From the NCBI RefSeq assembly GCF_028595955.1, contig NZ_JANHJP010000001.1:1-64000 (forward strand): DNA of 64,000 bases, read 5' to 3'. Below the pieces are notes generated by a model that did not search any database, was not told where the DNA came from, and saw only the letters and a program-made list of their open reading frames with translations. Shown piece by piece: positions 3,992-64,000 of the stretch (its first letter is position 1; every line of letters starts with the position of its first letter). This DNA is from Columbia Basin potato purple top phytoplasma. GTDB lineage: Bacteria; Bacillota_I; Bacilli_A; Acholeplasmatales; Acholeplasmataceae. The position numbers and the translations under genes are program-made.

Positions 3992-6505
3992 ATGTATAAA
4001 AAAAATCGATCAAAAATTTTTAATTATAAAAAGAGTATATTAATTCTTTTTTTAATTATTTTTTTTATATATACTTTTAAATTTGATAAAGATAATATAA
4101 CAAAAATTTGTAATAGTCCTGATCAAGCTTTATATGAAATACGTTCAGCTTTAATAAATTTATTAGTTAGTATTTTAGGAAAAATAGTTATTTTTCTTGT
4201 TTTGCTTTGTTTATATTATAATTTTTATCATTTAGTTGAAATTAAAAGATTAAAGAATCGATTAAATTTATGGGCTAACTTATCTTATTATATTAATCAA
4301 GTAGGTGAGGAAGTTTTTAACGAATTACCAATCGGCATTGTTTTAGTCGATAATGTTTTTCATAAAATTCAATGGATTAATAATTATGCTAATAATATTT
4401 TAAAAAAACCTGATTTAGATGCTTATTTAAAAGACGTTAATTCTTCTATGTTTGAATTATTAGAATCTTCAAATAATAAAGTTGTTTTACATATAGGAGA
4501 AGAAGTTTTTGATTGTTTATATAAAAAAGAATTTAATGTTTTTTATCTTTTTAATGTTACCGAAAGAGAACAAATAAAAGAAATTTATAATCAAAAAACT
4601 CCTACTTTAATTTTTGTATCTTTTGATAATTTAGATAATTCATTTAAAAAATTAGATTTGTCAGAACAATCTCAAATTAAAGTAGAGTATTTAAGTGCTT
4701 TATCAGATTTTTTTGAAATTTATGAAAGTTATTTAAAACAATTATCGGATGATAAATTTTTAGTTTTATTAAATTATTATCAATTGGAAAATATAATTAA
4801 GGATAAATTTTCCATTTTAAAAACAGTTCGTGATATATCGAATAAATATAAATTAAAAATTACTCTTTCTATAGGAGTTGCTTGTTATAATTTACCTTAT
4901 AATAAAATTTCTAATTACGCTCAAAATGCTTTAGAATTAGCTCAAAAAAGAGGTGGAGATCAAGCAGTTGTTAATGTAGAAAATAAAAAAATATTATATT
5001 TTGGAGCAACAACTACTTCTTTGGGCACTGATTCTAAAATATCAGCTCGAATTAATTCTGAAATAATTGAAGATTTGATTTTGAAACATCAAAATTGTTT
5101 TATTATGGGTCATATTCATCCTGATTTAGATTCTTTAGGTTCTATGATACTTTTTTATAAAATAGCTTCATCTATTAACACAAATTATAAACATTATTTA
5201 ATTATTGACGAAGACAAGACAGATGCTAATTTTAAATTTATTTATCAAGATTTATTTCAAGAAGAAAAACATTTAGCTAAACAGATTATAAAAACATCGC
5301 AAGCAATAAAAATGATAAATGAAAATTCACTTTTAGTTATTGTTGATACTCAAAGTTTAGATATCGTTAATAGTCCGGAATTATTAAAATTAACTTCTAA
5401 TGTAATTATTTTAGATCATCATAGAGCAACAGAAAATACTATTAATAATATTTTTTCTTATGTCAATTCTATGGCTTCTTCAACTGTTGAAATTTTAACT
5501 GAATTTATTAGTTTTTTTAAATATTCTATTGAAATAACTCCTTTAGAAGCTAGTTTGATTTATGGTGGAATGGTTATAGATACAAATTATTTTACTGCTC
5601 GTACTAGTTCAAGAACTTTGGAAGCGGCAGCTAAATTACTTTCTTTAGGCGCTGATGTTGCGAAAGTGAAATTTTGGTTAAGAGAAGAATTAAATAAAAT
5701 TTTAGAAATGAATGAATTAATTGCTAAAATGGAACTTTATATGGGAAAATTCGCTATTATTAGAAATAATAAGATATGTAATGATCGTTCTTTTTTAGCT
5801 AAAATTTCTGAATATGTTTTAAATATTCAAAGTGTAGATGCTGCTTTTACAGTTTCCAAATTACAAGATAATAAAATAGGTATAAGCGCACGTTCTTATA
5901 GCGAAATAAATGTTCAAATAATTATGGAACAAATGGGAGGCGGTGGACATATTAATAGTGCAGCTACCCAAATAGAAAGTGATAGTTTAGATGATATAAT
6001 TTCTCAATTAAAAAATATATTATCTTTAGAATATAAAGAAAGTTTAAAAAATATGAAAATTATTTTATTAGAAGATGTCAAAAATAGAGGCAAAAAAAAT
6101 GATATTATCGAAATTAAATATGGTTACGGTAATTTTTTAATTAAAGAAAAAAAAGCACTTTTAGCTACTGAACAAAATATTAAACAAATAAAAAAAGAAC
6201 AAATATTACAAGAAGAAGCTCACAAAAAACATAATTTATTAATGCAACAAGTAAAAAAAGATATTGATGATAAACAAATTGATATAATAGTTAATATAGG
6301 TCCACAAGGTAAAATGTATGGTAAAATAACTTTACAACAAATTGTGGATGAATTTCATAATAAATATAATATATTAATTAATAAAAAGAAACTTGTTTTA
6401 GAAAGCGAAATTAATTCTTTAGGAAAATACAAAGCAAATGTTTTTTTAACAAAAGATATTATTGCTTCTTTTATTATAAATATTAAAGATCTAGACAAGA
6501 AATAA
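3992..6505 (+). CDS. gdpP-rplI: GdpP-like c-di-AMP phosphodiesterase fused to ribosomal protein L9
   Basis: One 837-residue frame carries two proteins that are separate neighbours in Bacillus. Residues ~13-75 hold two membrane segments, ~100-170 a PAS-like domain and ~200-330 a degenerate GGDEF domain. The DHH phosphodiesterase domain follows, with GHIHPDLDSLG (~373) and LDHHRATEN (~473). DHHA1 carries GGGGHINSAATQ (~649). This half should hydrolyse c-di-AMP at the membrane. From residue 688, MKIILLEDVKNRGKK begins a complete L9 of 150 residues. There is no stop between the halves. A weak purine-rich stretch before the internal ATG at 6053 could allow separate L9 synthesis. Otherwise L9 must be cut off, or ribosomes would be tethered to the membrane. 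Confidence 0.93.
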   Translation: MYKKNRSKIFNYKKSILILFLIIFFIYTFKFDKDNITKICNSPDQALYEIRSALINLLVSILGKIVIFLVLLCLYYNFYHLVEIKRLKNRLNLWANLSYYINQVGEEVFNELPIGIVLVDNVFHKIQWINNYANNILKKPDLDAYLKDVNSSMFELLESSNNKVVLHIGEEVFDCLYKKEFNVFYLFNVTEREQIKEIYNQKTPTLIFVSFDNLDNSFKKLDLSEQSQIKVEYLSALSDFFEIYESYLKQLSDDKFLVLLNYYQLENIIKDKFSILKTVRDISNKYKLKITLSIGVACYNLPYNKISNYAQNALELAQKRGGDQAVVNVENKKILYFGATTTSLGTDSKISARINSEIIEDLILKHQNCFIMGHIHPDLDSLGSMILFYKIASSINTNYKHYLIIDEDKTDANFKFIYQDLFQEEKHLAKQIIKTSQAIKMINENSLLVIVDTQSLDIVNSPELLKLTSNVIILDHHRATENTINNIFSYVNSMASSTVEILTEFISFFKYSIEITPLEASLIYGGMVIDTNYFTARTSSRTLEAAAKLLSLGADVAKVKFWLREELNKILEMNELIAKMELYMGKFAIIRNNKICNDRSFLAKISEYVLNIQSVDAAFTVSKLQDNKIGISARSYSEINVQIIMEQMGGGGHINSAATQIESDSLDDIISQLKNILSLEYKESLKNMKIILLEDVKNRGKKNDIIEIKYGYGNFLIKEKKALLATEQNIKQIKKEQILQEEAHKKHNLLMQQVKKDIDDKQIDIIVNIGPQGKMYGKITLQQIVDEFHNKYNILINKKKLVLESEINSLGKYKANVFLTKDIIASFIINIKDLDKK

Positions 6506-7952: not shown

Positions 7953-9035
7953 ATGCTAGAAAAACTCGAAATAATAAAACAAAAATATTTAAATTTACAA
8001 AAAAAAATATTATCTGATACGAAAAATTTAAATAATATAGAATTATTAAAACAAATAAATGAATTAAAAAAAATTGTTTCTGTTTATGATGAATACCTTA
8101 ATTTAATAAAAGAAAAGGAAAATCTTAAAAAATTAATTACACAAAATAATTTACAAAACTCACAAAATGAAAATGAATTTGTTTTATTATTTCAGGAAGA
8201 AAAAAAGATTTTAGATACTCAAATTCAAGAAAAATTAGATAAATTGCAAAAAAAACTATTTACTAAAGATGAAGATAAAAACAAAAATGTTTTAATGGAA
8301 ATTAAAGCAGCAGCTGGAGGAAGTGAATCTAATCTTTTTGTAGCTGATTTATTTCGTGCCTATATTAAATATGCTGAAAGTAAAAAATGGAAGATAGATA
8401 TTATTAATTTAGTTTCTGGTGTTAAAAGTGGTATTTTTGCAGTAGAAATGATGATTTATGGCGATGATGTTTATTCTTTTTTACAATATGAATCAGGAAT
8501 ACATAGAGTTCAAAGAGTTCCTGAGACAGAAAAAAGAGGAAGAGTTCATACTTCTACAGTTAAGATTTTAGTATCTTCTGTATTAGAAGAGACTAAGATA
8601 GATTTAAATTGGAATGATATTCGAGTAGATACGTTTAATTCAAGTGGTCCAGGAGGACAATCAGTTAATACTACTAAATCAGCAGTTCGTTTAACTTATA
8701 TTCCTACAGGCGATAGTGTAGCTTGTCAGATAGCTAAAAGTCAACATCAAAATAAAGAAAAAGCTTTTCAATTATTAAAAAACAAGGTATATAATAAAAT
8801 AATATCTGAAAAACAAAAACAACAAAATGAAATTAAAAAAAATTTAATTAGCAAAGGAGATCGTAGTTCTAAAATAAGAACTTATAATTATGCTCAAAAT
8901 AGAATTACTGATCATCGTATAAATTTAACTTTACAAAAATTAGATTTTTTCATGGAAGGCAGAATAGATTTAATTATAGAACCTTTAAAAGAAGAATTTA
9001 ATAAACAAAATTTGAAAGAACAAATAAAAATATAA
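7953..9035 (+). CDS. prfA: Peptide chain release factor 1
   Basis: RF1 ends translation at UAA and UAG. The anticodon-like tripeptide region is RVPETEKRGRVHTSTV, giving PET at the PxT site. The catalytic GGQ loop is SSGPGGQSVNTTKSAVR. Length is 360 residues, as usual. In Firmicutes prfA is normally followed by prmC, which methylates the GGQ glutamine, and then by a tsaC-type gene. Here the tsaC-like gene follows directly after 4 bases, so prmC is missing from this locus. The start is ATG with an AAAAGGA-like site upstream. Confidence 0.95.
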   Translation: MLEKLEIIKQKYLNLQKKILSDTKNLNNIELLKQINELKKIVSVYDEYLNLIKEKENLKKLITQNNLQNSQNENEFVLLFQEEKKILDTQIQEKLDKLQKKLFTKDEDKNKNVLMEIKAAAGGSESNLFVADLFRAYIKYAESKKWKIDIINLVSGVKSGIFAVEMMIYGDDVYSFLQYESGIHRVQRVPETEKRGRVHTSTVKILVSSVLEETKIDLNWNDIRVDTFNSSGPGGQSVNTTKSAVRLTYIPTGDSVACQIAKSQHQNKEKAFQLLKNKVYNKIISEKQKQQNEIKKNLISKGDRSSKIRTYNYAQNRITDHRINLTLQKLDFFMEGRIDLIIEPLKEEFNKQNLKEQIKI

Positions 9036-31295: not shown

Positions 31296-32567
31296 TTATT
31301 TTTCTTTTTTTAAACCAAAATAAAGATATTTTTTTTGACCGAGTGTAGAATTTAAATATAAATTTGGAATCCAAATAATAATATTTTGTTGATCAACAAC
31401 TAACCAAATTTTATCTCTTTCCGTTAAAGGAATTTTCAAATTAATAAAAAATTTTTTTAATTTTTGTTTCCCAAAAGAAAATCTTAAAATATCGCCTGGT
31501 TGTCTTTTCCTTAAAAAAAAAGGAGGTTTAATATTGTTTGGATCATATAATATTTTTTGAATTAAACAACAAAAAGATAATAAATCTTTCTTATTTGAAT
31601 AATATAACAAAGGTTTTAAAAATTTATTATTTTTTTCTTGTTTTCTTTGTTTTGTTTGCCAAAAAAATTTATTATATTGTTTTATAAATAACCATTCAGA
31701 TGATAATGAATTCCAAGTTATATTAGATTTTTGATCATTTTGTAAACCTTTGATAATATTATTTATTAAATCAAAATTTTTATTAATTTTTTTTTCTTCT
31801 AATAAAAATAAAATGATATCTTTTTGAATAACAATATCTAATTTTAAAAAAGATTTTAAATTGAAACAAAAATTATTTTGTTTTTTTTCTAAAAAATCAT
31901 GAGTTTGTTTTCTGATAAACATGTTTATTTCTGTCATTTGAAGATGAAATTTTTTAATATTTTTTAAAAAATTATTTATTTCTTTGAAACAAGGTATAAT
32001 TTGATTTCTTATCTTATTTCTAGTATATATATTTAAATTATTAGTATAATCTTCTAAAAAAGTAATTTTTTTGTTAGAAGCATAAGATACAATTTCTTGT
32101 TTGGGAATATATAATAATGGTTTTAAAAAATAAAAACCATTATTAAAATATGATGTTTGCATTCCGCTATATCCTAAAATAGAACTACCACGAGCGATTT
32201 TGAATAAAATAGTTTCAGCTAAATCATCTAAATGATGTGCCGTGATTATATAATTGGTTTTATGTTTTAAAGCAATTTGTTTTAATTTTTCTTGTCTTAA
32301 TAATCTAGCTTCATTTTGGAAATTTTTTTCTTTTATGTTTAATTCGAAATAATAAAAAGATATTTGTTTTGAACAACAATATTTTTCGATTAAAATTTTA
32401 TCTTTTAAGGAGTCTTTTCTTTTTAAATGGTTAAAATTTACCACGATTAAATTATACTTGGAATTATATAAATAATCCAATAATACCATAGAATCCACAC
32501 CACCACTTACAGATATGATATATGTATTTTTTTTATCGAATTTCAAACATAGAGAAGAAAAAATCAT
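31296..32567 (-). CDS. tilS: tRNA(Ile)-lysidine synthase
   Basis: TilS attaches lysine to C34 of the CAU-anticodon tRNA-Ile, so that it reads AUA codons, which are abundant in a genome this AT-rich. The PP-loop is SVSGGVDSMVLLDYL near the N-terminus. TAHHLDDLAETILFKIARGS and the CFKEIN-type region follow. The C-terminal part shows KKFFINLKIPLTERDKIWLV, typical of the TilS C-terminal domain. The ATG at 32567 has an AAAGGA site upstream. A longer frame to 32597 would need a TTG start lying over that site. Length is about 423 residues. Confidence 0.94.
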   Translation of the reverse strand: MIFSSLCLKFDKKNTYIISVSGGVDSMVLLDYLYNSKYNLIVVNFNHLKRKDSLKDKILIEKYCCSKQISFYYFELNIKEKNFQNEARLLRQEKLKQIALKHKTNYIITAHHLDDLAETILFKIARGSSILGYSGMQTSYFNNGFYFLKPLLYIPKQEIVSYASNKKITFLEDYTNNLNIYTRNKIRNQIIPCFKEINNFLKNIKKFHLQMTEINMFIRKQTHDFLEKKQNNFCFNLKSFLKLDIVIQKDIILFLLEEKKINKNFDLINNIIKGLQNDQKSNITWNSLSSEWLFIKQYNKFFWQTKQRKQEKNNKFLKPLLYYSNKKDLLSFCCLIQKILYDPNNIKPPFFLRKRQPGDILRFSFGKQKLKKFFINLKIPLTERDKIWLVVDQQNIIIWIPNLYLNSTLGQKKYLYFGLKKEK

Positions 32568-35638: not shown

Positions 35639-37879
35639 TTAATTGATTCCTCTATAAATTTGATAAATATTAGGTAATTGTGATAAAGTAGAAATCAATT
35701 TTTCAATTTCTTTAATATTATGAATTAAAATTTTTAATTTAATTTTTGTTTCTGATGATTTATCATTAATAACATTTATTTTTAAAATATAAATTCCTAA
35801 TGTGTTAATTTTTTTATTAATATCTATTAAAAGTGTAGAATTACGAGAACCTATTAAAAAAATCCAAGCAAAATATTTTAATTTAGGATTATCCTTGTAC
35901 CAATTAGCATCAATAATTTCATTTGAATCATATTTTTTTATATTAGAGCATGTTTTTCTATGAATATTAATACCTTTTCCTTTAGAAATAAAACCTATAA
36001 TATCTTCATTAAATACAGGAGTACAACAATTAGCTAATTTTAATTTAATATTTTCTACTCCTTCAATAAAAACTCCACTATTATTACAATAAGATGCTTT
36101 ATTATTATAATTTTTTATTATTTGTTTTTCTAAAATATTTTTATTTTTTTCTAAGGATAGATTAATTTGATTAATTACATAATTACAATTAATTTTTTTA
36201 TTAGCGATAGCAATATATAAATCATTAATATTTTGAATATCTTGTTTATGAAAAAATTCAGTTAAAAAATTTTTATCAATTATAAAGTTTATTTTTTTAT
36301 TATTTAATTCTTTTTCTAAAATCTCTTGACCTGTTTTGATTAAATATATATTTTTTTGTTTTTCTTGATTTAAAACTTTTTTGATTAATTTTTTAGCATA
36401 AGTAGTTTTTACAATTTTTAACCATTCTTTGTTAACGCGAAATAAATTTTTATTAGTTGTGATAGAAATAATATCACCATTTTTCAAAATATAATCTAAA
36501 GGAACAATTTTACCGTTCACAATAGCTCTAGTCATTCTATATCCAATTGAGGAATGAATAAGAAAAGCGAAATCAATTGGTGTTGAACCTTTGGTTAATT
36601 CATAAACTTCTTGTTTAGGAGTAAAAACATAAACATTTTCGGTTAAAATATCATTTTTAATGGCATTTACAAAATTTTTAGGATTTTTATTTAAATAATC
36701 ATCAGAATCTTGAGTTATTTTAATTAATTCTTGATACCATCTTAATTTTTTAGCAATTTCCAATTGTTTATCTTGTTTGGAATATATTTTATTTTCTTTA
36801 TATCCCCAATGCGCAGCAATCCCTTTTTCGGCAATTTCATCCATTTCTTTAGTTCTTATTTGTAATTCGAATAAAGTACCATCTTTAGATAGAACAGTAT
36901 TATGTAATGATTGATATAAATTAGGTTTAGGAACAGCAATATAATCTTTAAATCTTAAAGGTAAAGGTGAGTAATGAGAGTGAATAATACCTAAACAACG
37001 ATAACATAAATCTACTTCGTTTACAATAATACGAATAGCTAATAAATCAAAAATTTCTTCTAATCCTACTTGTCTTTGTTTCATTTTTTTATAAATGCTA
37101 TAAATATTTTTGCTTCTACCGCTAATAGAAAAATTTGTAATATTAGATTGGTTCAACAAAATCTTAATATTGTTAATTATTTCTTGAATAGATTTCTCTC
37201 TTTGATTTTTTTTCATATTGATTAAGCTAGATATTTGATAATATTTTTCAGGTTGAATATAACGAAAAGAGAGATCTTCTAATTCTGATTTTATTTTAAA
37301 TAAACCTAAACGATGAGCTAAAGGAACATAAATAGTTAAAGTTTCTTGCGAAATACGTATTCTTTTATCAGGTCTCATTATTTTTAAAGTTTTCATATTA
37401 TGAAGTCTATCAGCTAATTTAACAAGTACTACCCTAATATCATTTGCCATAGCTAAGAACATTTTTTGTTGATTTTCGATTTGTCTTTGTTGTTGATTAA
37501 ACATAAGTTTAGTTAATTTAGTGGTTCTTTTTACTATATTTGCTATATCTTCGCCTACATTTGATTTTAGTTCTTCAAAAGTTAAATCGGTATCTTCTAA
37601 AACATCATGCAATAAACCCGCCATTAAAGTATTTGGTTCACTTTGTAAATCAGCTAAAATTTGAGTTACATAAATAGGATGAATAATAAAATTTTCTCCT
37701 GTTATTCTTTTTTGATTTTTATGTTTTTCTTTAGCTAATAAATAAGATTTATTTATTTGAATTAAAATATTTTCATTTGTTATATATGACTTAATTTTAG
37801 ACATTAATTCTTGGAATATTTTTTGTTCTTCTTTATTTAATTCATTTTCGTTATTAGATTGATCTTTAGATAATAACAC
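35639..37879 (-). CDS. rel: RelA/SpoT-type (p)ppGpp synthetase/hydrolase
   Basis: A long bifunctional-type stringent-response enzyme of 746 residues. The HD hydrolase domain has HPIYVTQILADL and GLLHDVLEDTDLTFEEL (~85-110). The synthetase domain has RFKDYIAVPKPNLYQSLHNTV and ELQIRTKEMDEIAEKGIAAHWGYKE (~310-360). A TGS domain (NVYVFTPKQEVYELTKGST) and a C-terminal ACT-like region follow. The start is GTG, with an AAGGTGG site 7 bases upstream and no ATG near. Motifs for making and breaking (p)ppGpp both look intact. The gene heads a rel-hisS-aspS cluster, an order also known in Bacillus. Confidence 0.95.
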   Translation of the reverse strand: MLLSKDQSNNENELNKEEQKIFQELMSKIKSYITNENILIQINKSYLLAKEKHKNQKRITGENFIIHPIYVTQILADLQSEPNTLMAGLLHDVLEDTDLTFEELKSNVGEDIANIVKRTTKLTKLMFNQQQRQIENQQKMFLAMANDIRVVLVKLADRLHNMKTLKIMRPDKRIRISQETLTIYVPLAHRLGLFKIKSELEDLSFRYIQPEKYYQISSLINMKKNQREKSIQEIINNIKILLNQSNITNFSISGRSKNIYSIYKKMKQRQVGLEEIFDLLAIRIIVNEVDLCYRCLGIIHSHYSPLPLRFKDYIAVPKPNLYQSLHNTVLSKDGTLFELQIRTKEMDEIAEKGIAAHWGYKENKIYSKQDKQLEIAKKLRWYQELIKITQDSDDYLNKNPKNFVNAIKNDILTENVYVFTPKQEVYELTKGSTPIDFAFLIHSSIGYRMTRAIVNGKIVPLDYILKNGDIISITTNKNLFRVNKEWLKIVKTTYAKKLIKKVLNQEKQKNIYLIKTGQEILEKELNNKKINFIIDKNFLTEFFHKQDIQNINDLYIAIANKKINCNYVINQINLSLEKNKNILEKQIIKNYNNKASYCNNSGVFIEGVENIKLKLANCCTPVFNEDIIGFISKGKGINIHRKTCSNIKKYDSNEIIDANWYKDNPKLKYFAWIFLIGSRNSTLLIDINKKINTLGIYILKINVINDKSSETKIKLKILIHNIKEIEKLISTLSQLPNIYQIYRGIN

Positions 37880-37963
37880 ACAAAAACCACCTTAAAAATT
37901 TTTTTAATGTTTTTTTTAAAAAAAGAAGAATAAATTATTTATAATGAGTCATAAAATCAAAAC

Positions 37964-39112
37964 TTAAGTGTATAATAATTTTTTATTTTGAGAATAAACT
38001 TCCTTTATTATACCAGCGCCTAAACAAAAATCTTCTTTATAAAAGGCACAAATTTGTCCAGGCGTAACTAATTTAATTTTTTGCGAATAATAAACTTTAA
38101 TTATATTTTCGCTTAAAAATATAATTTCAACTTCTTGATCAGGCTGACGATATCGAAATTTAGCTGATATTTTCATTTTAGCATTTTTTTTATAAAAATA
38201 ACATCCACAATCTCTCCAAACTATATTTGTAACTAAAGCTGAATCACTATATAAATAAGGACTTTCAGGATTTTGATCTACATAAAGAGTGTTAGTTTTT
38301 AAATCTTTACCTACCACAAACCAAGGATTTTGATTCTCTTTTGTTATTTTTAAATTTAATCTTTTTCTTTGGCCGATAGTATATTTCATTACACCTTCAT
38401 GTTCTTTTAAAAAAACACCTTTTGTATCTTTGATAGGTCCTTTTTGTGATTTTATATAATTATTCAAAAAAACAAAAAAATTTCTTTCTCCTATGAAACA
38501 AATGCCTGTAGAATCTTTTTTATTAGCGGTAATGAGTTTTTCTTGAAGAGCGATTTTTCTTACTTGTTCTTTTGTTATTTCACCTAAAGGAAAAATAATT
38601 TTATTTAATTGTTCTTCTTTTAATTGAGATAAAAAATAAGTTTGATCTTTGTTTTTATCTAAAGCTTTAGCTAAAATTTTTCTTTTATTTTTATGAATAA
38701 TTTTAGCATAATGACCCATAGCTATATAATCAGGTTTAAATTGCTCTACATATTTGGTAAAAATTGAAAATTTAATTTTATTGTTGCATAATACATCAGG
38801 ATTAGGAGTTAAATTTTGTTTTATATCGTTTAAGAAAGAAGCAAAAACTTGATTCCAATAATTTTCTGAAAAATCAACTTTATGACATTTAATTTGTAAT
38901 TGTTCAGCGATTTTTAAAGCATCATTGAAATCTTTTTCTTGAGGACAAATATTATTGTTAATAAATGGATTTCCTTTAATATCATAATTTAAACTACTAT
39001 CCCAATTACGCATAAAAACACCTTCAACGTCGTAACCTTGTTTTTTTAAAAGAAAAGCAGCTACACTACTATCGACGCCACCAGATAAACCAATAATTAT
39101 TTTTTTTTTCAT
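37964..39112 (-). CDS. mnmA: tRNA-specific 2-thiouridylase MnmA
   Basis: MnmA thiolates U34 of tRNAs for Lys, Glu and Gln. The PP-loop is GLSGGVDSSVAAFLLKKQGY at the N-terminus, followed by GVFMRNWD. The two catalytic cysteines are in NPDVLCNNKIKF (~105) and STGICFIGERNF (~205). MGHYAKI and TIGQRKRLNL are also typical. Length (382 residues) is normal. It lies 20 bases downstream of the nadE-like gene, on the same strand. Confidence 0.95.
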   Translation of the reverse strand: MKKKIIIGLSGGVDSSVAAFLLKKQGYDVEGVFMRNWDSSLNYDIKGNPFINNNICPQEKDFNDALKIAEQLQIKCHKVDFSENYWNQVFASFLNDIKQNLTPNPDVLCNNKIKFSIFTKYVEQFKPDYIAMGHYAKIIHKNKRKILAKALDKNKDQTYFLSQLKEEQLNKIIFPLGEITKEQVRKIALQEKLITANKKDSTGICFIGERNFFVFLNNYIKSQKGPIKDTKGVFLKEHEGVMKYTIGQRKRLNLKITKENQNPWFVVGKDLKTNTLYVDQNPESPYLYSDSALVTNIVWRDCGCYFYKKNAKMKISAKFRYRQPDQEVEIIFLSENIIKVYYSQKIKLVTPGQICAFYKEDFCLGAGIIKEVYSQNKKLLYT

Positions 39113-39132
39113 ATTTTACCTTTGAATTTGAA

Positions 39133-40908
39133 TTATTTTTTTATTTCTTGTCTTAAAATATTATTCGGCACTTTGAATTCTGTACGATAAGATAGACCAC
39201 AAGATACAATTTTAACACCAGAAGAAATTTTATTTCTTTTATGTTGGTTTTGATAGAAATTCTTAATATATTGCGAAACTAATGTAAAACTTTCGTTATA
39301 AGAACAAAAAAAAGTTTTTTCTAATAAGAAAATTATTTTTTCTTTAGATAAACCATTATTTAAATAATGATATAAAATAAAATCTTCTATAATAACTTTA
39401 CGATTTAAAAATTTATTTATTTTATTTAAATAAAAATTTTTAATATTTTCTTCAATAAAGATTTTTTTCTTTTTAAAATGGAATAAAATCAATTCTGTCA
39501 TTAAAGTATTAGGTATACCAGCATTTATGTTATATACAAAACTATTAGATGGACAACTATAATTTATTTTACCATACGCGATATTAGATAAATTATTACT
39601 TAGTAAAATTAATTTATCTAAATTATTTTTTAAAAGCGATTCAGAATTATTTATATTTTCTTTATTTATAAATTTAATATTATTTATCCCTAAGTTATTT
39701 AATAATTGTTTATCAAAAGATAAACTTTGAGAATCATGATAATAATCTAATTCATTTATTATAATTTCTAAATCTTTGAAAGATTTTTGATTATCATTCA
39801 AATATTGAACAACAACTAAAATCATTAAAATATCATTTAGTGTATTTTTTATTTCTAATAAAATTTTAGATTTTTTTATATGAAAAATTTGAGATTTTAA
39901 AGATAATGTTTGAATTGTATTTGATAATTTTAATTGTTTGCTTAATTCTTTTGGGTTATCATTTAAAAAAGGTTTAGGATTTAATGGTTTTTCGAAATCA
40001 TATGATTCATTTTCTTTTAAATCGAAATAAGATTTCACAAAAGGCCATTCTTTTCCAATTGTTTGATCTGCATAACTTGTATCAATTCTTCTTTGATGTT
40101 TAATATAATCTATAAATACATCAACTACTAAACTAATATCTTCTTGTTCTGTTAAATTTTTTTCTCCAATAATTTCTCCTAAAACAGCAGCAATTTTATG
40201 ATTAGAAAAAAGAGTATCTGTAGAAGATTCTGTTATTCCACTGCTAGTATAAAAATATCCTCCTATTTGTTTACGAGAATGATTTAAAACAGCTAATTTA
40301 CGCATTTGATCTTTTCCAATATGTTCTGTTGAAGAAGATAAATTAAAAATCAAATGAGCGCCGTTTAAAACCATTTTATCACTAGGCGATGTAATAGTCC
40401 ATAAATCTTGACAAATTTCAACACCAAACACAATATTAAATTTTTTATTAATGAATAAAATATCTCCTATAGGAACTTTTTGTCCTAATAAATCAATTAT
40501 TTCATTATTTATATATTGCCCTGAGTGAAACCATCTTTTTTCATTAAATTCTTTATAATTAGGTATTGTTTTTTTAGGCACAATGCCTAAAATTTTTTTA
40601 CCTTGAATAACAATAGCTACATTAAATAAAATTTCTTTGAATAAAAAAGGCATTCCAATTATGAAAACGCCTGGAAAATTATTATTATTAATAATAAAAT
40701 CAAGAGAAGATAAGTTTTCTTCTAAAAAATTAGTTTCAAAAAACAAATCTCCTGCTGTATAACCGCTTAAGCATAATTCTGGAAATAAAACAACACTTGC
40801 TTTACTTTTGTTTAAAATTTCAATAATGCTTTTGGCATTTTTTGCAGAGTTTCCTACATATAAATTAGGACTAGACATTTCTATTTTGATAGACCCGTTT
40901 TTATACAT
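39133..40908 (-). CDS. nadE: NadE-like protein: intact glutaminase, degenerate NAD synthetase domain
   Basis: Glutamine-dependent NAD+ synthetase has an N-terminal nitrilase-fold glutaminase and a C-terminal ATP-using synthetase. The glutaminase here (~1-290) is complete: Glu44 in LFPELCLSGYTAGDL, Lys in IVPKKTIPNYKEF and Cys166 in GVEICQDLWT. In the C-terminal half, the ATP-binding SGGxDS aligns without gaps to KNTLND (~354-359, in ILLEIKNTLNDILMILVVV). The TGNKSE/GYxTLYGD region is shortened and unlike the family. The ending VKIVSCGLSYRTEFKVPN still matches. So homology is clear (591 residues) but synthetase activity is doubtful. It may be decaying, act as an ammonia-releasing glutaminase, or serve a new role. 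Confidence 0.8.
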   Translation of the reverse strand: MYKNGSIKIEMSSPNLYVGNSAKNAKSIIEILNKSKASVVLFPELCLSGYTAGDLFFETNFLEENLSSLDFIINNNNFPGVFIIGMPFLFKEILFNVAIVIQGKKILGIVPKKTIPNYKEFNEKRWFHSGQYINNEIIDLLGQKVPIGDILFINKKFNIVFGVEICQDLWTITSPSDKMVLNGAHLIFNLSSSTEHIGKDQMRKLAVLNHSRKQIGGYFYTSSGITESSTDTLFSNHKIAAVLGEIIGEKNLTEQEDISLVVDVFIDYIKHQRRIDTSYADQTIGKEWPFVKSYFDLKENESYDFEKPLNPKPFLNDNPKELSKQLKLSNTIQTLSLKSQIFHIKKSKILLEIKNTLNDILMILVVVQYLNDNQKSFKDLEIIINELDYYHDSQSLSFDKQLLNNLGINNIKFINKENINNSESLLKNNLDKLILLSNNLSNIAYGKINYSCPSNSFVYNINAGIPNTLMTELILFHFKKKKIFIEENIKNFYLNKINKFLNRKVIIEDFILYHYLNNGLSKEKIIFLLEKTFFCSYNESFTLVSQYIKNFYQNQHKRNKISSGVKIVSCGLSYRTEFKVPNNILRQEIKK

Positions 40909-41030
40909 TATAAAAAAACCTTTCTAATTTTGTTTTTCGTTTTTCATTGGATTTTAAAGGTTTATAAAATAATTTTTTAATTTTTTTCTATTAATTTTGA
41001 CTCAAAATAATAATTTTATGATTTAAAAAT

Positions 41031-41771
41031 TTATTTATTTTTCTTTTTTATGATAAGATTATCTCTTTTTTCCATTACAAAACCTACTATAATTATAGAT
41101 AAAAGAGAACAAAATAATTTAATTAAAAAAAATCCAATTTGTGCATGGAGGAATGAAGAACACAAAACGATTATTCCATCAGTTAATAATAAGGTTAAAA
41201 CAAAATTTATACCATAAATATCTTTTAAAATTTTTTGACAAATATCCAAACCACCTGTATTATAGCCTAAATTACGAATATTACTTAAAGTGTATCCAAT
41301 CAAAAAACCACCTAAAGTACCAGATATTATATATGAAAAAATGCGCTTTATTTTAGGATGATTTTCATTAAAATTTAATTGCAAAGTCGATAAAATACGT
41401 TCTACATCATTTTCTTTTATACAAAGATCTAAAAGAAAAAAAATCCCGCTTAAAAATAAAGCTAAAAAAACTGTTTTTTGACAAAAATTTTTGCCAAAAA
41501 ATTTATAAGCTAAAAATATAGTAATTAAATTATAAAAAAGATGCAAAATAACAAAATATGAGTTAAAATTACCTTTTATACTTGGTTCAATATATTCAAT
41601 AATTTGTGTTGTTAAAGAAGAAAAACCATCTAAACCGCCATTATTTAATCTAGGACCTATAATAAAAAAGAAAATAGAGATAGCTAAAATTATATCATTT
41701 AATATAAGCAAAAACCATTTATAATACTTATTATTATAATTTTTATTTTTTTTAAAAATATTTTTGAACAA
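41031..41771 (-). CDS. YitT-family multipass membrane protein (copy 3)
   Basis: A 246-residue membrane protein with about six hydrophobic segments. The family signature is NTGGLDICQKIL near residue 175. An earlier IIGPRLNNGGLDGFS resembles the first half of the same repeat. As in the other two copies, the soluble DUF2179 domain is absent and the chain ends in a lysine-rich tail. It lies between prfB and the nadE-like gene. Function is unknown. Confidence 0.72.
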   Translation of the reverse strand: MFKNIFKKNKNYNNKYYKWFLLILNDIILAISIFFFIIGPRLNNGGLDGFSSLTTQIIEYIEPSIKGNFNSYFVILHLFYNLITIFLAYKFFGKNFCQKTVFLALFLSGIFFLLDLCIKENDVERILSTLQLNFNENHPKIKRIFSYIISGTLGGFLIGYTLSNIRNLGYNTGGLDICQKILKDIYGINFVLTLLLTDGIIVLCSSFLHAQIGFFLIKLFCSLLSIIIVGFVMEKRDNLIIKKKNK

Positions 41772-41856
41772 ATGAATTTTTCCTTTATGCTCTATTTAAT
41801 TTTTAAAATAAACAATTAATAAATAGTTTCAAAAAAAATTTATATTTCGATATTAT

Positions 41857-42945
41857 TTATTTTTTTAAAAAAGAATTTATAAAATCATCTAAATAACCAT
41901 TCATAACTGAATCAATTTGAAAAACTTCACAATTAGTACGATGATCTTTTACCATCTGATAAGGATGAAAGATATAACTTCGGATTTGATTACCCCAACT
42001 TATATTTTTTTGATCTTCTTTTAAAATATTTTTATTTTCTTTTTGTTTGGAAACTTCTAATTCTAATAATTTAGTTTTTAAAATTTGTAAAGCTTTTTCT
42101 CTATTTTTTATTTGGCTTCTTTCGTTTTGACAATTAACTACTATATTAGTAGGTAAATGTGTTATTCTTACTGCAGAATCCGTTGTATTAACATGTTGTC
42201 CGCCTGCTCCACTACTTCTAAAAACATCAATTCTTAAATCTTCGTCTTTTATATCAATTTTAATTTCTTCTTTTATATCGGGTAAAACTTCGCAAGATAC
42301 AAATGAAGTGTGTCTTCGCAAATTAGAATCAAAAGGTGAAATTCTGACTAATCTATGAACTCCCATTTCCGACTTTAAATATCCATAGGCATAAGAGCCT
42401 TTGATTAATAAACTAACTGTTTTGAGACCGGCTTCTAATCCTTGTTGTAAATATAAAATTTTGACTTGAAAGTTTTTTCTTTGAGCATATTTTTGATACA
42501 TTTGAAAGAGCATTTCGCACCAATCTTGTGATTCTGTGCCTCCTGCTCCAGGGTGCAAAGTTAAAATAGCGTTGTTTTCGTCATAAGTTTTATTTAATAA
42601 AATACTAATTTCGAAATTTTTAATATCTTTTTGGAGTTTATTTAAATCTTTTACTAATATTGAATAGTCATCATCATTTTCTTTTATTAAATCTAATAAA
42701 GTAATCAAATCATTGAATTTTATATTTAAATCTATAAATCGATCTATTTGTTCTTGTAATTTATGAAATTTTTTTGTTTTTTTAGTGATATTAATATTAT
42801 TTTGATCCCAGAAAGAACTTTCTGTCATTGATTTATTAAATTGATTAATCTTATGTTTTTGCTCTTTTATATTTATTTTATATTCTAGATTTAATAAAAT
42901 TTTTTTTAAATTTTCTAAAATTTTATTAATTTCATATTTTTCCAT
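41857..42945 (-). CDS. prfB: Peptide chain release factor 2
   Basis: RF2 ends translation at UAA and UGA. The SPF recognition tripeptide is seen in RISPFDSNLRRHTSF, and the GGQ loop in SSGAGGQHVNTTDSAVR. I start at ATG 42945; a TTG at 42954 would add three residues. Most bacterial prfB genes carry a programmed +1 frameshift with an in-frame UGA near codon 25. Here that place reads CTA GAA TAT and the frame is open, so this autoregulation is absent. A full RF2 supports UGA being a stop codon in this organism. secA lies 31 bases upstream, the usual secA-prfB order. Confidence 0.95.
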   Translation of the reverse strand: MEKYEINKILENLKKILLNLEYKINIKEQKHKINQFNKSMTESSFWDQNNINITKKTKKFHKLQEQIDRFIDLNIKFNDLITLLDLIKENDDDYSILVKDLNKLQKDIKNFEISILLNKTYDENNAILTLHPGAGGTESQDWCEMLFQMYQKYAQRKNFQVKILYLQQGLEAGLKTVSLLIKGSYAYGYLKSEMGVHRLVRISPFDSNLRRHTSFVSCEVLPDIKEEIKIDIKDEDLRIDVFRSSGAGGQHVNTTDSAVRITHLPTNIVVNCQNERSQIKNREKALQILKTKLLELEVSKQKENKNILKEDQKNISWGNQIRSYIFHPYQMVKDHRTNCEVFQIDSVMNGYLDDFINSFLKK

Positions 42946-58362: not shown

Positions 58363-60378
58363 ATGACATTTGAAATAAAAAATAAAATTAGAACTTTAAC
58401 AGATAAAATTTGTAAAGCTAATTACGAATATTATCAATTAAACGAAACAGAATTAACAGATTCTCAATATGATGCGTTATTGCAAGAATTGATTTTATTA
58501 GAAAAAGAATATCCTGAATATAAATTGTCTTATAGTCCTACTTTTAAAGTAGGTGGCTTTTTGAGTTCTAAATTTGATAAAGTATCGCATGATGTACCAA
58601 TGTTATCTTTAAATAATGTTTTTGATTTTAAAGAATTAAAACTTTTTTGTGATCGTTTATCAAAACAACAAATTCCTTTTTGTTTTAATTTAGAACTTAA
58701 AATAGACGGAGTCGCTATTAGTTTAAAATATAAGAAAGGTATTTTATTTCAAGCTTTAACAAGAGGGAATGGTTATGTTGGCGAATTAATAACCGATAAC
58801 ATAAAAACTATTAAAGATATTCCTTTAAAATTACCAGAATCAATAGATTTAGAAGTAAGAGGGGAGATTTTTTTTGATCATGATTCGTTTGAACAGTTAA
58901 ATAAAGAACAAAAATATCAAAACAAATTTTTATTTTCTAATCCTCGTAATGCAGCTTCAGGAACTTTAAGACAATTAAATTCTGCAATAGTATCTAATAG
59001 GAAATTATCATCTTTTATTTATTCTATCATTAATCCCCCTTCTTTTATTAGAACACAATATGAAGTTTTAATGTTTTTAAAAAAAATGGGTTTTTCTGTA
59101 AATACTTATTTTAATGTTGTTTATTCTTTTGATGAATTAAAAGAAAAAATTAATTATTACGAGAAACTTAAAAATAATTTACCTTATGATATAGATGGAG
59201 TTGTTATTAAAGTTAACGAATTAAATTTACATAATTTAATAGGTAATACAAGTAAATATCCTAAATGGGCTATTGCTTATAAGTTTAATTCTTTGAAAGG
59301 CGAAACTGTAGTAAAAAATATTAATTTTCAAATTGGAAGAACAGGTGTTTTAACTCCTATTGCTGATATTCAGCCTATTATTTTAGATGGTAGTTTATTA
59401 TCTAAAATATCACTTCATAATTATGATTATATCCAAAGAAAAGATATTCGTATTAATGATTTTGTTTTAGTCCATAAATCAGGCTCTATTATTCCAGAAA
59501 TTTTAGAAGTTGTAAAATACAAAAGAACTAACCAAATACCTTTTCAAATGTTGAGTAATTGTCCTTTTTGCGGAGAAGTTTTAACTAAAAAAGAAAATGA
59601 AGTAGATTATTTTTGTTTAAATAATTATTGCGAAGAAAAGCAAATAAAAAAAATTATTCATTTTGTCTCTCGGGAAGCTATGGATATTAATGCTTTAGGT
59701 AAAAAAACTTTAGTTACTTTTTTTCAAAAAGGGATAATTAAAAAAATTTCTGATTTATATTTTTTAAAAGATAAGTATCCTCAATTGAAACAATTGTTTG
59801 GTTTTAAAGATAAAAAAATAACTAATATTTTAAATTCTATAGAACAAAGTAAGACTCAATCTTTTTATAGAATTTTATTTGCTTTAGGCATTGATCATGT
59901 AGGTATACAAATATCTAAATTATTAAGTAATAAATTTCAAAATGTTCATAATTTACAAAAAGTTACTTTTGAAGAATTAATGAAAATCCCTGAAATAGGT
60001 CCAGAAATTTCAATTAGTATATGTCAATATTTTCAAAATAAGAAAAATATTGAAGAAATTAATTTATTACAATCTAAGGGAATTGTTTTTGGTTCTTCAG
60101 TACAAAATTCTGAAATTATTCAATCTAATAAAAATATATTACAAAATAAAAAAATAGTTTGTACAGGGATTTTAAATAATTATTCAAGAAAAGATATAAC
60201 TACTCTTTTAGAAAAATATGGCGCTTTTGTTTCTAAAAGTATTTCTTCTAAAACTGATTATTTGATTGTGGGTAAAGAAAATAGTGATTCTAAATTAGAA
60301 AAAGCGCGTTTATTAAAAATTAAGATAATAGATGAAAAAGAATTGAATTTTATTATAAATTCAATTAACGAGTCTTAA
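58363..60378 (+). CDS. ligA: NAD-dependent DNA ligase
   Basis: LigA seals nicks using NAD+. The adenylated Lys is in LELKIDGVAISLKY (~113). NAD-binding domain Ia (YEYYQLNETELTDSQYDALLQEL), FSNPRNAASGTLRQL and PYDIDGVVIKV are all present. A four-Cys zinc finger (CPFC...CLNNYC, ~400-425), helix-hairpin-helix region and C-terminal BRCT domain (~593-671) follow. Length (671 residues) is standard. It depends on NAD+, which matters because the nadE-like gene in this window looks unable to make it. acpS follows after 20 bases. Confidence 0.96.
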   Translation: MTFEIKNKIRTLTDKICKANYEYYQLNETELTDSQYDALLQELILLEKEYPEYKLSYSPTFKVGGFLSSKFDKVSHDVPMLSLNNVFDFKELKLFCDRLSKQQIPFCFNLELKIDGVAISLKYKKGILFQALTRGNGYVGELITDNIKTIKDIPLKLPESIDLEVRGEIFFDHDSFEQLNKEQKYQNKFLFSNPRNAASGTLRQLNSAIVSNRKLSSFIYSIINPPSFIRTQYEVLMFLKKMGFSVNTYFNVVYSFDELKEKINYYEKLKNNLPYDIDGVVIKVNELNLHNLIGNTSKYPKWAIAYKFNSLKGETVVKNINFQIGRTGVLTPIADIQPIILDGSLLSKISLHNYDYIQRKDIRINDFVLVHKSGSIIPEILEVVKYKRTNQIPFQMLSNCPFCGEVLTKKENEVDYFCLNNYCEEKQIKKIIHFVSREAMDINALGKKTLVTFFQKGIIKKISDLYFLKDKYPQLKQLFGFKDKKITNILNSIEQSKTQSFYRILFALGIDHVGIQISKLLSNKFQNVHNLQKVTFEELMKIPEIGPEISISICQYFQNKKNIEEINLLQSKGIVFGSSVQNSEIIQSNKNILQNKKIVCTGILNNYSRKDITTLLEKYGAFVSKSISSKTDYLIVGKENSDSKLEKARLLKIKIIDEKELNFIINSINES

Positions 60379-63186: not shown

Positions 63187-64000
63187 ATGTTTTTATCAAT
63201 ACCTAAAATTATTTATCCTAATGATAATAAAGAAATTATTACTAAAATAGAAAAACTTTTATGCGAAGAAAATTTAAAAAATGATTTTATAGAAGAATAC
63301 GCTATTATTTTATCTGATGAAGATGAATTAATTGCTGCAATTGGTCGTTATTTAAATAATTTACGTTGTTTAGTGATAAAAAAAGAATATCGAAATTACA
63401 ATTTAGCTAATATTTTAATAGATTTTATGATTAAAAGAATTTATAAAAATCATTTTAAAGAAATTTTTGTTTTTACTAAACCTATTAATTTCAAAATTTT
63501 TCAAAATTTAGGTTTTCGGATGATATATAATAATGATGAATTTGGTTTTTTAACAAATAGATTCGATCTTTTCGATAAATATTTAAAATATTTATCGAAT
63601 CAAAAAGAAGATAAAGAAAATAGCAGTGTTATAGTTATGAATTGTAATCCTTTTACCAAAGGACATGAATATTTAATAAAAAAAGCTTGCGAAAATAGTT
63701 CTTTTGTTTATGTTATTATGGTTAGCGAAGAAGGTTCATTATTTACATACAAAGAACGTTTAGATATGATTAAATTAGCTACTCAAAATTTTTCGAATGT
63801 TAAAATTTTAGAAGGAAGCAATTATTTAGTATCGAAAAATATTTTCCCTTCTTATTTTTTACCTTCCAAAGAAGAAGTTGTTAAGCAACAAATAATTTTA
63901 GATACATTTATTTTTGTTAATTATATAGCTCCTGCCTTAAATATAAAAAAAAGATTTGTAGGCGAAGAACCTTTTTCAAATACTACTAATTTATATAATC
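63187..64000 (+). CDS. citC: [Citrate (pro-3S)-lyase] ligase-like protein CitC (partial, cut by window end)
   Basis: The first 271 residues of a CitC-type protein, about four fifths of the usual ~340. Residues ~1-120 resemble the GNAT domain (IAAIGRYLNNLRCLVIKKEYRN and IFQNLGFRMIYNN). From ~155 a nucleotidyltransferase domain begins with VIVMNCNPFTKGHEYLIKKA, whose TKGH is the HxGH-like ATP site. Known CitC activates citrate lyase by acetylating its prosthetic group with ATP and acetate. No citrate lyase subunit gene (citD, citE, citF) is in this window, so the real partner is unknown. The 3' end lies outside. Confidence 0.82.
   Translation, partial: MFLSIPKIIYPNDNKEIITKIEKLLCEENLKNDFIEEYAIILSDEDELIAAIGRYLNNLRCLVIKKEYRNYNLANILIDFMIKRIYKNHFKEIFVFTKPINFKIFQNLGFRMIYNNDEFGFLTNRFDLFDKYLKYLSNQKEDKENSSVIVMNCNPFTKGHEYLIKKACENSSFVYVIMVSEEGSLFTYKERLDMIKLATQNFSNVKILEGSNYLVSKNIFPSYFLPSKEEVVKQQIILDTFIFVNYIAPALNIKKRFVGEEPFSNTTNLYN

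Follow-up and report, generated by a model that had tools for sequence, protein, structure and literature searches.

The window, by which we mean the whole 64,000-nucleotide stretch of the Columbia Basin potato purple top phytoplasma contig analysed here, contains a gene that by type is a long-form, glutamine-dependent NAD synthetase, NadE, in which the loop for ATP pyrophosphate has been replaced. The locus therefore raises the question of whether its product can still make NAD+ and, if not, why it is kept. As the initial annotation had described, the reading frame is open over 591 codons; it starts with an ATG and lies on the minus strand (Table 1). The ORF at 39133-40908 matched the long-form NadE model NF002730 with an E-value of 6e-93 and 312.1 bits, below the curated cut-off of 473, and M. 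tuberculosis NadE (3dla) with an E-value of 1e-35; the strong part of both matches is limited to approximately residues 2-375. A Pfam search of the 591-aa protein found CN_hydrolase (PF00795, E 1.7e-8) and no NAD_synthase domain. Whole-length homology, fold, and operon place nevertheless make the protein a member of the NadE homologous family by descent. Its CN_hydrolase domain, triad, and second Glu are the features of a putative nitrilase-superfamily glutaminase. Two terminator-like hairpins lie within the gene, at 40648-40672 (-) and 40572-40592 (+), and these are the 2 found in 37800-42100 vs 0.3 expected from shuffles. A 35-nt direct repeat, 94% identical, has one copy inside the gene (39389-39423) and another at 41007-41041, where it overlaps the end of the neighbouring ORF upstream (41031-41771). 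A promoter scan around the gene returned a count below the shuffle mean.

Table 1. Features of the NadE-derived locus and related genes, in window coordinates. Positions of the former ATP loop and of the C-terminal tail are derived from residue numbers.
Feature	Position	Strand	Remarks
NadE-derived protein, whole ORF	39133..40908	-	ATG start, 591 codons, 591 aa
Nitrilase-type glutaminase half, residues 1-290	40039..40908	-	Triad Glu44/Lys112/Cys166, YRE-type loop 118-123
Degenerate NAD synthetase half, residues 341-591	39136..39888	-	Fold still predicted NadE-like
Former ATP pyrophosphate loop, residues 354-359	39832..39849	-	KNTLND replacing SGGLDS
Conserved C-terminal tail, residues 564-583	39160..39219	-	GVKIVSCGLSYRTEFKVPNN
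mnmA	37964..39112	-	SGGVDSS intact; 20 nt downstream of NadE-derived gene
tilS	31296..32567	-	PP-loop intact; internal control
LigA, NAD-dependent DNA ligase	58363..60378	+	
Citrate lyase ligase	63187-64000	+	PF01467 match; runs off window

To define the loss we aligned the window protein with sequences from the family, 26 of them from other phytoplasmas and 54 from non-phytoplasmas. Of the genomes carrying the gene, 27 of 28 among phytoplasmas and 54 of 57 elsewhere are represented; the copies excluded were broken (one), split (one), or incomplete (two). SGGLDS aligns without gaps to KNTLND at residues 354-359, as the initial annotation had it. The GTGDxSE region of the window protein reads LLSNNLSN. 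The shortening that had been placed at the TGNKSE region is real but lies elsewhere: the TYENAQARxRT segment just before that region is deleted in the phytoplasma proteins, and the P2-loop segment PELxxxQxTExxIG is likewise lost. The window protein thus lacks the SGGxDS, P2 loop, TYENAQARxRT, and GTGDxSE of functional long-form NadE and scores below the NF002730 cut-off. The eight residues at 352-359, the former loop, exist in 22 different versions among the 27 phytoplasma sequences. Of the sites that 90% or more of non-phytoplasma NadE sequences share, phytoplasmas keep 52/67 in the glutaminase half, 4/4 in the linker, and 18/103 in the synthetase half (Fisher p 5e-15, glutaminase vs synthetase half). 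The remainder of the C-terminal domain is still recognisable, including the final VKIVSCGLSYRTEFKVP stretch that the earlier reading had picked out, and the tail is eroded in four phytoplasma sequences (L020, L023, L025, and L026). Within a single phytoplasma subgroup (L021, L022, L024, L027, and L029), the dead synthetase half carries an Asn/Thr-rich low-complexity insertion of varying length. Since tilS in the same window has an intact PP-loop, PP-loops as such are not being lost. With its ATP loop, NaAD-binding segment, and P2 loop gone, the protein should be unable to make NAD+ in the usual way, as first proposed, and NAD synthetase activity has almost certainly been lost.

The gene is carried by 85 of 88 family genomes, 28 of 29 phytoplasmas and 57 others. 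None of the 28 phytoplasma copies has SGGxDS (the broken copy in G047 being counted by its downstream frame), and 56 of the 57 others do, the remaining one, G087, having SGGLDY. Recurrence in 28/28 genomes excludes chance, and likewise decay confined to one species or a faulty assembly of the window. What was noticed in a single gene is thereby confirmed for the whole genus. Simple decay, which the initial annotation had said would be indicated by close relatives with a normal SGGxDS and relaxed selection, does not hold inside the genus. Phytoplasma NadE sequences group as a single, fully supported clade (SH-aLRT), whose stem is long at 1.03 changes per column. Two sister Acholeplasmataceae genomes (G009 and G010) adjoin it and both keep SGGLDST. 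The simplest account is that SGGxDS was lost once, on the phytoplasma stem. G055, a single-contig phytoplasma with a contamination estimate of 7, has no such gene and showed no trace of one over 16 kb; the function is therefore dispensable there. Beside its mnmA at 8354, ssb-like, DNA-binding, and sigma-like ORFs occupy approximately 1-8000 of L037, presumably resembling a phytoplasma potential mobile unit. The G047 copy is frame-broken, with one-base gaps clustered in about 120 bases (L038, approximately 5090-5210) vs a 99% identical intact copy, and so tight a cluster suggests sequencing error.

The glutaminase half is preserved. Glu44, Lys112, and Cys166 (the earlier reading had named Glu44, the Lys region, and Cys166 as conserved) and the second Glu123 are each present in 27/27 aligned phytoplasma sequences, as are Tyr50, Tyr118, Glu120, Phe121, Ser193, and Lys199. 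M. tuberculosis NadE uses the triad Glu52/Lys121/Cys176 and an essential second Glu132 (PMC6946656); in our own residue mapping these correspond to Glu44/Lys112/Cys166 and Glu123. The glutaminase of the M. tuberculosis enzyme is described as nearly silent until the synthetase site is filled, with a 179-fold activation by the synthetase intermediate (PMC6946656), and loss of the P2 loop could therefore leave the phytoplasma enzyme weak or slow. Human NadE without synthetase ligands, however, has a basal glutaminase kcat of 0.18 per s with a Km of 34 mM (PMC6946656), and in phloem glutamine is one of the predominant amino acids (PMC3322544), so an unactivated enzyme could still work. The fully conserved triad and YRE loop favour a glutaminase over a pseudoenzyme, the two roles first suggested, although sequence by itself does not settle the choice. 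The mirror-image loss occurs in the NadE of L048, L049, and L050 (from G013, G014, and G012), where SGGADS is intact and the glutaminase Cys is replaced by Gly or Ala; these are probably ammonia-only enzymes.

Maintenance of the protein, another of the early proposals, is borne out by selection. Across 18 close phytoplasma pairs, which are not independent, the glutaminase half has a dN/dS of 0.05-0.28 and the synthetase half one of 0.12-0.46, with the synthetase value higher in 18/18; a bootstrap interval for the difference excludes zero in 4 of the 11 pairs computed. The synthetase/glutaminase dN ratio has a median of 2.44 in phytoplasmas (5-95%: 1.98-3.02; 351 pairs) and 0.83 in non-phytoplasmas (0.60-1.19; 1430 pairs). 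Relative to the glutaminase half, the synthetase half is evolving about three times faster in phytoplasmas than in relatives. The dead half is thus relaxed yet constrained, and the glutaminase half tightly held. With the frame open in 27/28 phytoplasma copies and dN/dS below 0.5, hence well below 1, in 18/18 pairs, the gene does not look like a pseudogene and is not simply decaying. A moderate AlphaFold2 model of the 591-aa protein (pLDDT 72.3, pTM 0.56, six sequences; poor at residues 556-591 and 115-131) aligns with M. tuberculosis NadE over 554 residues (Z 36, rmsd 6.4), and Foldseek agrees. On this model, the synthetase half appears to have kept its fold while losing its active site.

If the synthetase is dead, NAD must come from elsewhere, and the genomes agree with the initial annotation on this point. 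Searches of 29 phytoplasma genomes found no NadD (control genomes, 11/14), NAD kinase (12/14), PncB (8/14), or PnuC (5/14). A PF02540 search found no second NadE in the 29; matches were mainly to the PP-loop of the neighbouring MnmA, with one sub-threshold extra match each in G047 and G070 and one short match just above the cut-off, with an internal stop, in G050. PF03219, for NTT-type NAD/nucleotide transporters, matched no phytoplasma genome and no control genome either, and no NAD transporter was identified by these searches. PF01467, which covers NMNAT of other families, matched 8/29 phytoplasma genomes, and in the genome of the window the match is the citrate lyase ligase. NadD is present in 58 of 59 non-phytoplasma family genomes (G028 gave a weak partial match only), and judging adjacency by coordinates, 57/57 non-phytoplasma genomes with nadE have nadD upstream of it at a distance of about 35 nt or less. 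Downstream, mnmA follows within about 130 nt in 27 of 28 phytoplasma genomes with the NadE-derived gene and in the same order in 13 of the 18 non-phytoplasma loci for which wide flanks were read. The ancestral order was thus nadD-nadE-mnmA, from which phytoplasmas lost nadD, and the MnmA pairing is ruled out as a phytoplasma invention. The window nonetheless encodes the NAD users that had been listed, LigA, PDH components, and an NADH-oxidase-like flavoprotein, and the presence of LigA indicates that NAD is still needed by the cell. An NADPH-using FolA has been reported for phytoplasmas (PMC3322544); given this and NAD kinase in 0/29 genomes, NADP may be imported too.

Judged from these comparisons, we favour, as somewhat probable, that the phytoplasma protein is a NadE turned uncoupled glutaminase in NAD-importing auxotrophs. 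The phytoplasma common ancestor would have abandoned NAD synthesis (nadD and pncB were not found) and would then have become dependent on NAD that is presumably imported. Its glutamine-dependent NadE would subsequently have lost ATP and deamido-NAD binding and been retained for the glutaminase half, which is predicted to convert glutamine to glutamate and ammonia, ungated by the synthetase. The leftover synthetase fold would probably serve as a scaffold for the oligomer and for the glutaminase active-site loops. Behind this reading stand the site loss, its genus-wide spread, the intact glutaminase residues, purifying selection, and the missing pathway genes; counting against it are G055 without the gene, the relaxed synthetase half, and the tail eroded in four genomes. 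No consumer of the ammonia or glutamate was identified. We put forward more tentatively that the protein might be a self-standing oligomeric glutaminase whose ex-synthetase half gates activity through a new ligand or partner, in a genus of plant pathogens living on imported NAD.

Other readings would explain part of the same evidence. The protein could be maintained with its hydrolase half now turned to some amide that is not glutamine, or it could as a whole be a non-catalytic scaffold or regulator. The nitrilase fold houses many amidases, structural matches include formamidases, Nit2, and a nicotinamide-bound amidase, and at seven positions of the synthetase half, 25 or more of the 27 phytoplasmas share a residue that is not the commonest one in relatives. 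However, triad, second Glu, and neighbouring residues match the functional-looking NadE of relatives in 27/27, a match that speaks for an unchanged substrate and for retained catalysis, and we regard this possibility as a credible but minor one. Unlikely, in our judgement, is a slow relic, a useless dying gene held open by its place among operon genes. Its absence from G055, the break in G047, and the roughly threefold relaxation of the synthetase half relative to relatives would all fit; but across a diverse genus the frame is open and nearly full length in 27 of 28 copies, the G047 break resembles sequencing error, and even the dead half has a dN/dS of 0.12-0.46, against 0.05-0.28 for the glutaminase half.

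Two further readings are very improbable. The glutaminase could supply ammonia to another ATP-pyrophosphatase, for example the adjoining MnmA, whose gene lies within some 130 nt in 27/28 phytoplasma genomes with the gene. The order nadE-mnmA, however, also occurs in 13/18 non-phytoplasma loci and is hence inherited. MnmA keeps its Cys-containing PDVLC and GIC segments, which we take to be catalytic, and cysteine desulfurase, the usual sulphur source of MnmA, is present in 28/29 genomes. G055 moreover has mnmA without the NadE-derived gene. We give equally little credence to continued NAD+ synthesis with ATP bound at a non-standard site. In its favour are the predicted retention of the overall fold, the NAD-dependent enzymes of the cell, and a review that assigns NadE this role (PMC3322544), but each of PP-loop, NaAD segment, and P2 loop has been lost or varies, and the upstream substrate-making enzymes were not found in 29/29 genomes.

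Taken together, our results indicate that phytoplasmas probably import NAD and use the NadE-derived protein otherwise. The nutrient needs of phytoplasmas are read from their genomes. If NadE is dead genus-wide, NAD+ itself must be taken up, and probably NADP+ too, as NAD kinase was not found. This would alter media design and point to a new transporter. The protein is also a clear natural example of an ammonia-channelling enzyme in which one half has outlived the other. According to a 2012 review (PMC3322544), phytoplasmas have resisted cell-free culture; its passages on NAD record NadE in all four phytoplasma genomes then known and no other NAD-synthesis proteins, and propose probable import of deamido-NAD or a precursor. 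Import of deamido-NAD followed by a NadE step is contradicted by the loss of the synthetase sites. The main text of a classification of NAD synthetases (PMC3376133) uses none of the terms phytoplasma, Mollicutes, and Acholeplasma, and where nadE is mentioned in passages of PMC4518686, PMC11857868, PMC11123874, PMC8026896, and PMC13259348, it is solely a neighbour gene or marker. We found no published report of NadE synthetase loss in phytoplasmas in the open-licence literature.

Among known systems, the closest by type is long-form NadE (NF002730; M. tuberculosis 3dla/6ofc), with which the phytoplasma protein shares the two halves, the triad, the YRE loop, and the predicted overall fold. It differs in being without SGGxDS, TYENAQARxRT, GTGDxSE, and the P2 loop, and in its sub-cut-off score. 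The NadE of G009 and G010 is nearest in the tree and likewise adjacent to mnmA; unlike phytoplasmas, both retain SGGLDST and have nadD directly upstream. The Cys-Glu-Lys triad fold is also that of nitrilase-superfamily amidases and glutaminase subunits (PF00795). Those stand alone or with a live synthetase, whereas the phytoplasma protein has a degenerate but constrained synthetase half attached. NAD biosynthesis has been given up in the host NAD salvage of Chlamydia and Rickettsia as well, as covered in PMC3376133; in contrast to these, phytoplasmas keep a derived NadE.
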